A stretch of DNA of 64,000 nucleotides, from positions 166,969-230,968 of the forward strand of contig DYFK01000001.1 of NCBI GenBank assembly GCA_020725265.1, read 5' to 3'. The notes under the pieces were generated by a model, which saw nothing but the letters and a program-made list of their open reading frames with translations, had not been told where the DNA came from and searched no databases. This document shows, piece by piece, positions 41,611-59,280 of the stretch. This DNA is from Hydrogenophilus sp. (lineage in GTDB: Bacteria > Pseudomonadota > Gammaproteobacteria > Burkholderiales > Thiobacillaceae). Made by a program: the position numbers and the translations under genes. The stretch's first letter is position 1. Each line of letters opens with the position of its first letter.

Positions 41611-41805
41611 ATAGGTCTCAATCTCCCTGCTGCGTTCGCGAAGGTTGCGTATTCTTTGAACCGATAAGCGCAAGCTTAGCGCCGCGCGGCTAGGTCGCCG
41701 GAGAGCGCGTGGCTTGTCCATGTACCCGAAGCGATCTGCGCGTGGCCACCCTTGAACCCCTGGGTTCAAGATAGCGGCCCGAACGGCGCCAGCGGGGAGA
41801 CCCTC
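41611..41805 (+). ncRNA. ssrS: 6S RNA
   Basis: The sequence lies between zapA and the 5-formyltetrahydrofolate cyclo-ligase gene, the conserved place of 6S RNA. The two ends can pair (GGTCTC...TCCCTGCTG at the 5' side with CAGCGGGGAGACC at the 3' side). The 3' half has the hairpin CTTGAACCCCTGGGTTCAAG, almost identical to the known E. coli element. 6S RNA mimics an open promoter and holds RNA polymerase-sigma-70 in stationary phase. Ends are estimated to within a few bases. Confidence 0.88.
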
Positions 41806-42522: not shown

Positions 42523-43338
42523 TCAGTAGCGATAGCTCTTGCCGTTGACCAGCCAGGGATTCGGCTTCGCTTCGGAAGTCGGCAAGGTAATCCAGGTCTG
42601 CTCCGAGACGGCGCCCTCACCCGTCCGCCGCACACCATCCGCGAAAGCGGTCAGCCAGATCGCGTAGGTGCCCGGGTCCAGGACCCGCGAGGCCAATGCC
42701 TGATTTTTCGGGCTTGATCCCGCATTGAACCAATTGGAATAGGTCGCTGGCCGAAGCGCCGTCGCGGCCACCCCGATCGCCTCGGAGGTGGTCGGTAGAA
42801 TGGCCCATCGACGATATTTTTCCAGGTCGCTCATGCGATTGAAAATGGCCAGGTAAAACTCCGGATCGACACTTGCCGACATCCAGCGCATCAGCAAGGC
42901 AGGATCCACGAACTCGGCCCAATTCCGGGCGGTTTCCGGGTCAATCAGCTTGTCCAGTGCCTGACTGTAGGCGTCCGGTTCCATGGCCACCGTCGCCAGC
43001 GCGGTCATGAAGCGAGGTTCGGTGACCGCGCCCAGCCACTCGGAAAAAGCCTTGGGGTTCTTGAAGGCGACGCCGTGCCGAGTGCTGTCCAGCATCATTG
43101 CCAGCCAGGCTTCGCTGCCGCGAGACGCCACCGAGTCCGTGTTCCGCCGCTGACCGGTGCTGTCCACCCAGGTCAACCGATCGATCACGCCGCCATCGGG
43201 CTGACGAACCGGGGTAATGACATAGGCAGGGGAGGTATCCGCTCTCGCCGTAGCGGCGGAGCGCGGCGAAGCCTCGGCATGCGCCGGCGGAATCACTCCA
43301 GCCAGTAAGGCAAACAGGCATACGGCCTTGTATCGCAT
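42523..43338 (-). CDS. Exported tandem-repeat protein (paralog of the next gene)
   Basis: I do not recognise a named family. The 271-residue product has a signal peptide (MRYKAVCLFALLAGVIPPAHA, cleaved before EASPR), so it should be periplasmic or surface located. From about residue 90 to 240 it shows some eleven degenerate 12-13-residue units of the form (D/E)P-x-x-(Y/F)-x-x-W/A, for example MEPDAYSQALDKL, VDPALLMRWMSAS, VDPEFYLAIFNRM and LDPGTYAIWLTAF. The units align with those of the adjacent gene at 43525-44181. ATG 43338 lies at the signal peptide. No Cys-lipobox. Confidence 0.75.
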   Translation of the reverse strand: MRYKAVCLFALLAGVIPPAHAEASPRSAATARADTSPAYVITPVRQPDGGVIDRLTWVDSTGQRRNTDSVASRGSEAWLAMMLDSTRHGVAFKNPKAFSEWLGAVTEPRFMTALATVAMEPDAYSQALDKLIDPETARNWAEFVDPALLMRWMSASVDPEFYLAIFNRMSDLEKYRRWAILPTTSEAIGVAATALRPATYSNWFNAGSSPKNQALASRVLDPGTYAIWLTAFADGVRRTGEGAVSEQTWITLPTSEAKPNPWLVNGKSYRY

Positions 43339-43432
43339 GATGAGCGGAACCTTCAAATCAATCGCATCGTGACTCTCGGATAGCGGCGAACCCGACACAC
43401 TCGACCCAAGGCACAGGGGGTTTGGAAACGCT

Positions 43433-43447
43433 GATATTCTAATATTC
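43433..43447. promoter_or_regulatory. AT-rich palindromic motif upstream of the first repeat-protein gene
   Basis: Read on the minus strand this is GAATATTAGAATATC, an inverted repeat (ATATT/AATAT around two bases) about 95 bases before ATG 43338. Thirteen of 14 bases match the site before the paralog at 44247-44262. It could be an operator or an overlapping promoter element. The match in an otherwise GC-rich region argues against chance. Confidence 0.45.
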
Positions 43448-43474
43448 AAAGCGATAACATAAAACCCCAAAAAC

Positions 43475-43506
43475 AAAAAGGACGGAACTCACGTTCCGTC
43501 CTTTTT
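43475..43506 (-). terminator. Terminator between the two repeat-protein genes
   Basis: A 14-base perfect stem (AAAAAGGACGGAAC and its complement) with a TCAC loop starts 19 bases after the stop of the 43525-44181 gene. Runs of A and T on both sides make it able to work in either direction. It implies that the two paralogs are transcribed separately. Confidence 0.9.
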
Positions 43507-43524
43507 CGCGACACGCTTCGCCGA

Positions 43525-44181
43525 TTACTTGGCGGGGGCGGCGGGCACGGGGATGAAGCCGGCGAACGGGTTGGCGATGTTGCCGTAGGTAGCCGGGTTC
43601 ATGAAGGCACCCCAGGTACCGTAGGTCTTGGGATCGGCGGCGGCGCCGGCCCACTGGGTGTACAGATTGGGGTTCAACGGGGCCATCATCAGGTTCATGT
43701 TGGCCGGCGCCAGGGGAGCCATGGCCCAGTTCATGTACATGTTGGGGTTGAAGGGGGCCAGACCCATCTGCAGGACGCGCGGATCCAGGGGAGCCATCAT
43801 CCACTTCATGTACATGTTGGGATTCATCAGGGGCGACATGGCGGCCAGATAGAAATTCGGGTCCATGGAGGCGGCCAGCCACTTGGTGTACATGTTCGGA
43901 TCCAGGAAGGCGGCGTAGGACTTCAGAATGTCGGGGGACATGCCGGCCTGGGCCATCTTGGTGAAGGTGGCGGGGTCCATGCCCTTCTGCATCATGATGA
44001 TGGCGGTGGCCGGATCCATCAGGTTGGTCATGGCCTGGACGGCGGCCTTGGGATCCTTGGCGATGTCGGCAACCTTGGCCGGATCCAGCAGTTGAGCGGC
44101 GGTGCTTTCAGGGGTGGCGGCTTCCTGGGCAAAGGCGGATTGGGCCAGCAGAGCCAGGGCGAGGACGGACAGCTTTTTCAT
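43525..44181 (-). CDS. Exported Met/Asn/Pro/Tyr-rich tandem-repeat protein
   Basis: No named family is recognised. The 218-residue product has a clean signal peptide (MKKLSVLALALLAQSAFA before QEAATP). Residues 31-206 are about thirteen tandem units of 12-13 residues with the pattern (L/M)-(D/N)-P-x-x-Y-x-x-W-x-x-A/P, such as MDPNFYLAAMSPL, MNPNMYMKWMMAP, FNPNMYMNWAMAP and LNPNLYTQWAGAA. Methionine, proline, asparagine, tyrosine and tryptophan are strongly enriched and cysteine is absent. A regular helical solenoid or an extracellular matrix, globule-coat or metal-binding protein are all possible. A strong ribosome site, AGGAGTGACTTCC, precedes the ATG. Confidence 0.8.
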   Translation of the reverse strand: MKKLSVLALALLAQSAFAQEAATPESTAAQLLDPAKVADIAKDPKAAVQAMTNLMDPATAIIMMQKGMDPATFTKMAQAGMSPDILKSYAAFLDPNMYTKWLAASMDPNFYLAAMSPLMNPNMYMKWMMAPLDPRVLQMGLAPFNPNMYMNWAMAPLAPANMNLMMAPLNPNLYTQWAGAAADPKTYGTWGAFMNPATYGNIANPFAGFIPVPAAPAK

Positions 44182-59204: not shown

Positions 59205-59280
59205 TGGTGGCCAGGGGCGGAATCGAACCGTCGACACGCGGATTTTCAATCCGCTGCTCTACCAACTGAGCTACCTGGCC
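59205..59280 (-). tRNA. tRNA-Phe (GAA anticodon)
   Basis: The 76-base gene on the minus strand begins GGCCAGGTAGCTCAGTTGGT and ends with encoded CCA. The acceptor stem GGCCAGG pairs with CCTGGCC, the anticodon loop is TTGAAAA in a GCGGA/TCCGC stem giving anticodon GAA, and the T-arm contains GGTTCGATTCC. All cloverleaf features are intact. Confidence 0.97.

Follow-up and report, generated by a model that had tools for sequence, protein, structure and literature searches.

What do two neighboring genes for exported repeat proteins contribute to a Hydrogenophilus genome (GCA_020725265.1)? The pair lies on contig DYFK01000001.1, in a stretch of 64,000 nucleotides (positions 166,969 to 230,968) that was analyzed whole and is called the window here.

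The gene pair and its repeats

A sequence-only reading had placed two minus-strand genes of 271 and 218 residues in this part of the window, and both were present. P0001 (43525–44181, minus strand) is an open reading frame whose translation is a 218-aa exported repeat protein; P0002 (42523–43338, minus strand) is a 271-aa exported paralog with weaker units. Export had been proposed for both, and each has a Sec-type signal peptide, read by eye: 18 aa ending AFA in P0001 (44128–44181, minus strand; AFA|QE) and 21 aa ending AHA in P0002 (43276–43338, minus strand; AHA|EA). The proposed paralogy was borne out by BLASTP (E 1e-22, 27% identity across 159 aa).

The proteins had also been described as tandem repeats of 12–13 residues. 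Proline spacing exceeded shuffled expectation in both: Pro pairs spaced 12 or 13 residues apart numbered 15 in P0001 versus 5.2 (sd 2.0) in shuffles, with 1 of 5000 shuffles as high, and 8 in P0002 versus 2.1 (sd 1.35), with 3 of 5000 as high. A unit consensus of M-[DN]-P-[AN]-x-Y-x-x-[WM]-M-x-A, derived from 927 in-register units in 70 sequences including P0001, was near the pattern first noted. Together with an AlphaFold2 (AF2) model, Pro spacing and consensus defined the P0001 array at 43582–44085 (minus strand), with about one short helix for each 12–13-residue unit and Pro at the helix starts. Mature P0001 was rich in Ala, Pro, and Met (11.5% Met), with few charges and no Cys. The Met content of P0002 was only 2.8%.

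Separate terminators and promoters had been assigned to the two genes, and half of this was supported. An intrinsic-terminator-like hairpin of 14 pairs (43506–43475, minus strand) separates P0001 from P0002, but the same scan found no terminator-like site at the P0002 end, and no sigma-70-like promoter was found. The terminator scan returned two matches, both from this one inverted repeat, where 1.6 were expected.

P0002 has a C-terminal tail (42526–42561, minus strand) ending Tyr-Arg-Tyr. All 17 second genes that are complete in relatives likewise end in these last two residues, Arg-Tyr (the 18th, L049, is cut by a contig end). This invariant end of P0002-type proteins (42526–42531 in P0002) is a possible sorting or docking signal.

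Predicted structure

The repeats had been suggested to form a solenoid, and AF2 predicted a one-helix-per-unit solenoid for P0001 with good confidence (pLDDT 86.4, pTM 0.69). In this model the protein is a chain of short helices, mostly of 7–12 residues, each begun by the Pro of its unit. The P0002 model (pLDDT 74.9, pTM 0.57) contained the same helical array at residues ~75–232 (42643–43116, minus strand) together with a short beta region and the tail. The beta region (residues 39–66; 43141–43224, minus strand) was predicted with low to middling confidence (block means 54–71) and was absent from the P0001 model.

Comparison of the P0001 fold with the PDB gave a best E of 3.1 with Foldseek and no Z ≥2 among 100 chains with VIA-align; the best E in the P0002 fold search was 0.48. 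When family profiles were compared with PDB sequences, alignment A3 gave nothing at E ≤1 and alignment A1 gave one match at E 0.3. The absence of a PDB fold match is no proof of a new fold. As modeled, the family fold is probably an unusual coil of short helices. It resembles alpha-solenoids (TPR, HEAT, and the like) in that tandem repeats appear as stacked helices in the P0001 model, but differs from them in having about one helix per unit and no Pfam repeat or PDB fold match.

Extent of the family

The pair does not stand alone: P0001 and P0002 are two of seven paralogs (~210–470 aa) found on six contigs of the genome. The view that the repeats belong to no named family held up: neither Pfam nor NCBIfam has a model covering P0001, P0002, or the 70 aligned sequences (A3). 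From 99 member stretches, 77 passed filters for score, length, and redundancy, and 69 of these plus P0001 entered the structure alignment. Stray weak profile matches among the 70 sequences were to PF17935 in two, PF06303 in one, and three NCBIfam models in one each. A TetR C-terminal domain (PF17935) in P0001 was rejected, with a score of 14.9 bits versus a curated cut-off of 26.1 and matches at E ≤0.01 in 2 of the 70 sequences. Among the open-licence papers listed, no title or abstract opening described the repeat family, which may still be published elsewhere. The P0001/P0002 family appears to be undescribed and is found mostly in sulfur-oxidizing bacteria.

A search of 61 genomes with P0001 gave matches at E ≤0.01 in 30. 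On reading, L011 and L040 were taken to be chance matches, which removes one genome, G038, from the matching set. All 23 genomes of the genus matched, with four to nine matches each. P0001-type repeats were present in six of 14 genomes of the taxonomic family outside the genus, and the other eight lacked the repeat family. Relatives among the best 80 of 100 stretches were mostly MAGs labeled Thiobacillus, Hydrogenophilales, Thiobacillaceae, Betaproteobacteria, and similar. In the isolate Parasulfuritortus cantonensis LSR1 (L071), a P0001 ortholog was accompanied by a second repeat gene. Across relatives the repeats were kept, and of the listed relatives with a readable start, most had a signal peptide by eye. 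One MAG titled Bordetella parapertussis (L073) has a family repeat gene; its label is probably wrong.

Farther afield the family was rare. It was carried by seven of 368 other genomes in the class sample (8/369 counting the own genome) and by one of 397 other genomes, G515, in the phylum sample (2/398 counting the own genome). A profile of nine distant proteins aligned with the main family at an hhalign probability of 99.5 over 140 columns, a value that repeats and composition can inflate. A search for phage or plasmid copies of P0001 gave no match.

An OmpA-fused paralog

One paralog in the same genome (L006) consists of the repeat domain, a Pro/Ala-rich linker, and then an OmpA domain (PF00691). 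The repeat domain itself matched no Pfam family, and the Pfam search found no PF00691 match in P0001 or P0002. The fusion recurred in 18 of 18 loci from 18 other genomes, with 61–81% identity to the own OmpA domain; the loci had been selected as having long open frames before BLAST comparison with that domain, and are not a random sample. OmpA-like domains bind peptidoglycan, and the L006-type member at least should therefore be periplasmic.

Gene neighborhoods without sulfur genes

Neighborhoods were taken from a crude gene caller and read by eye, except where Pfam, NCBIfam, or BLAST was used. A liv-type operon for branched-chain amino acid transport lies upstream of P0001 and P0002; downstream are 5-formyltetrahydrofolate cyclo-ligase-like, 6S RNA, zapA-like, and hemE-like genes (genes identified by eye). 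There were no sulfur genes beside the pair. The 6S RNA (41621–41802, plus strand) scored above the Rfam gathering score and lies between the zapA-like and cyclo-ligase-like genes. Elsewhere in the window a tRNA gene was found at 59208–59280 (minus strand).

Directly upstream of P0001 orthologs, livF was found in 21 of 31 loci. Conservation of the pair was partial: a second repeat gene lay just downstream in 18 of the 31 P0001-type loci and not in the rest. In 21 of the 80 named loci (best 80 of 100), paralogs of a second group lay near an mla operon carried by the other strand.

Sulfur genes near paralogs

Some paralogs were found in sulfur-gene arrays. Same-strand arrays combining a repeat paralog with a gene for flavocytochrome c sulfide dehydrogenase (FCSD), or an FCSD-like gene, occurred in eight of the 80 named loci (best 80 of 100): L075, L077–L081, L083, and L096. 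Two further arrays were L149 and L153. L076, with an FCSD-like gene (38%) ~2 kb upstream of the repeat gene, was left out of the eight. The arrays also held some of the following, not every gene being present in all: DUF302, rhodanese, cytochrome c, SoxY/SoxZ, and a sigma-54 activator. Published work already describes DUF302 genes within the sox operons of other bacteria (PMC5248467). Pfam/NCBIfam supplied the identities of the array products in L150 (which is the L078 locus), L151, and L149; at the other loci they came from BLAST to these.

The L078/L150 array is on one strand and starts with SoxY, SoxZ, the sigma-54 activator, two small CZB-like genes, and rhodanese, followed in order by DUF302, the repeat gene, cytochrome c, the FCSD flavoprotein, and a NapA-type gene. 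In L149 and L096 the order was FCSD-like, repeat, SoxY. The NapA-type nitrate reductase gene (L150 961–3801, minus strand), directly after the FCSD gene, suggests sulfide-dependent denitrification.

Distances to FCSD were counted for the 124 genus repeat genes among the matches listed. An FCSD match lay within 3 kb of six, versus 0.96 expected (Poisson p 5e-4); within 5 kb of six versus 1.59 (p 0.006); and within 7 kb of seven versus 2.23 (p 0.008). The other 118 of the 124 were more than 3 kb from an FCSD match, and many contigs were short. In a tree that did not include L081 and L149, six linked copies formed one clade and L096 branched separately. In the own genome, the C15 paralog neighbors soxXA. 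At the related loci L107, L109, L115, and L120 soxXA was not seen; this adjacency may be due to chance and is weak evidence.

Sulfur genes also accompanied the family in more distant genomes. In G074 (class sample), one family member and three more Met/Pro-repeat genes were flanked by a Sulf_transp gene on one side and by DUF302, SoxZ, and SoxY on the other. One of the three had a weak family-profile match (E 1.8e-5); the other two had none at E 1e-3 and were picked out by an MNP pattern. Of these two, the one at L137 11595–12590 (minus strand), beside DUF302 and SoxYZ, encodes a Met-rich protein with MNPMMMAPM-type repeats and a CxxCH motif. In G515, from another class, a 342-aa member of some 20 units matched the family profile at E 3e-34; Sulf_transp, DsrE_2, and FadL genes came before it and a DUF302 gene next after. 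A second G515 member was ~5 kb from aprB and aprA. Among six class-sample relatives besides G074, no sulfur-oxidation genes were recognized by eye in stretches of 3–16 kb.

Co-occurrence with dsrA and SoxY

In the class sample, dsrA was found in seven of eight family-bearing genomes versus 110 of 361 others (Fisher p 0.0017), or in six of seven (p 0.0046) leaving out the own genome; neither these p values nor those for FCSD distance and SoxY take shared ancestry into account, and the sampled genomes are not independent. It was also found in G515. The own genome had dsrA matches above the cut-off in two separate places (G000:C15 and G000:C25). SoxY was rejected as a marker, as its presence in six of eight versus 183 of 361 class-sample genomes was not significant (p 0.16). 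No SoxY match was found in the own genome, though soxX and soxA are present (L144 8713–10246), nor in G012, G014, and G020 of the genus; the Sox system may be altered there, or the assemblies may have gaps.

The association was loose in both directions. Among the eight genomes of the taxonomic family outside the genus that lack repeat proteins, all eight had a dsrA match (in G035 as fragments below the cut-off only) and six had SoxY, so the repeat proteins are not required for sulfur oxidation. Conversely, a full dsrA match was missing from several family-bearing genomes, some of them incomplete: G005, G009, G012, and G013 (split) in the genus, G029 outside it, and G153 in the class sample. 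Since dsrA occurs without the repeats and the repeats without dsrA, the repeat proteins are accessory at most.

Possible roles

The family was compared with known sulfur globule proteins through published descriptions. SgpA, SgpB, SgpC, and SgpD belong to Allochromatium vinosum, which has reverse Dsr (PMC10386293). Like them, the present proteins are exported and repetitive, have regularly spaced prolines, and occur as several, perhaps partly redundant, proteins. The proline period differs: P-X11/12-P in the P0001/P0002 family versus mostly P-X2-P as printed for SgpD (PMC10386293). No family named for Sgp came up in the Pfam and NCBIfam searches, and with the period differing, membership of the Sgp family is not claimed. 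In Beggiatoa leptomitoformis, ALG67575.1 is described as a sulfur globule protein of ~15 kDa with a signal peptide, regularly spaced prolines, and no notable conserved domain, whose disruption accompanies loss of sulfur deposition (PMC7356093). The signal peptide, regular prolines, and lack of a notable domain are shared features; ALG67575.1 is one ~15 kDa protein, whereas seven paralogs of ~210–470 aa occur here.

The reading we favor, at a probability of a little under one half, is that family members act in the periplasm as solenoids binding, coating, or holding zero-valent sulfur, in an Sgp-like manner with no claim of homology. A sulfur-holding or coating role is the simplest reading of the export, the chemistry of the repeats, the wall-binding version, and the repeated proximity to enzymes that produce or transfer zero-valent sulfur. 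Solenoids rich in Met, Tyr, Trp, and Pro would first be exported by Sec. They could then bind hydrophobic zero-valent sulfur (S8, polysulfane) released in the periplasm by FCSD and the Sox system, and the sulfur would be coated or held as a dispersed deposit. The OmpA-domain paralog would tie the coat to peptidoglycan, and the held sulfur would then go inward to the reverse Dsr pathway. The repeat family, the OmpA fusion, the linkage of some paralogs, and the dsrA excess are its computed support, joined by export signals read by eye and a predicted solenoid fold; assembly in the periplasm, sulfur binding, and coating are inferred. That P0001 and P0002 act like their operon-linked paralogs would be an extrapolation from homology alone. 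Counting against the favored reading, the majority of family members, these two included, have no adjacent sulfur genes.

Among the roles first considered for the pair, a globule coat is the leading candidate, through the sulfur-gene linkage of paralogs. An outer-surface site is possible too, since sulfur deposition by Thiobacillus species is described as taking place outside the cell (PMC4288042). A bolder form of the coat reading appears unlikely: in it, single short helices with DP/NP caps would build a superhelix of undescribed fold that serves three or more proteobacterial lineages as a dedicated carrier and coat of periplasmic zero-valent sulfur, alongside a DUF302 partner and a form anchored to peptidoglycan.

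Solenoids commonly bind proteins. The repeats might be a scaffold that keeps SoxYZ, FCSD, and cytochromes together or near the wall without touching sulfur, which would explain why paralog genes share arrays with the genes for these proteins and why one protein of the G074 cluster joins a CxxCH motif to MNP-rich repeats. Most listed paralogs are nevertheless away from FCSD genes, and the Ala/Pro/Met-rich, sparsely charged mature P0001 was judged unlike a typical protein-binding scaffold, and on balance we find this explanation improbable. Equally hard to favor is a general structural family of the envelope, joining outer membrane, periplasm, and peptidoglycan, for which presence in sulfur oxidizers would be incidental. 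It would fit the OmpA fusion, the nearby mla operon, and the scatter of members over the genome, but not the sulfur-gene linkage in three lineages, the dsrA association, or the absence of the family from most sampled genomes. Scaffold and general envelope role both remain real rivals. A Met-rich periplasmic buffer for copper or oxidants is very improbable, as the 11.5% Met of mature P0001 is set against the low Met of P0002 and the lack of Cys in P0001, and composition is the one thing that speaks for metal binding through Met.

Apart from the Sgp proteins of purple sulfur bacteria, there is little understanding of how bacteria deal with insoluble elemental sulfur outside the cytoplasm. The genome paper on Thiobacillus thioparus raises the possibility that an unidentified protein helps to release sulfur atoms from SoxYZ, which might explain the sulfur deposits (PMC5248467). 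The repeat family supplies named, testable candidates for such handling: multi-copy proteins, linked in some paralogs to FCSD, SoxYZ, and DUF302, with a wall-binding version and a predicted fold that has no PDB match.
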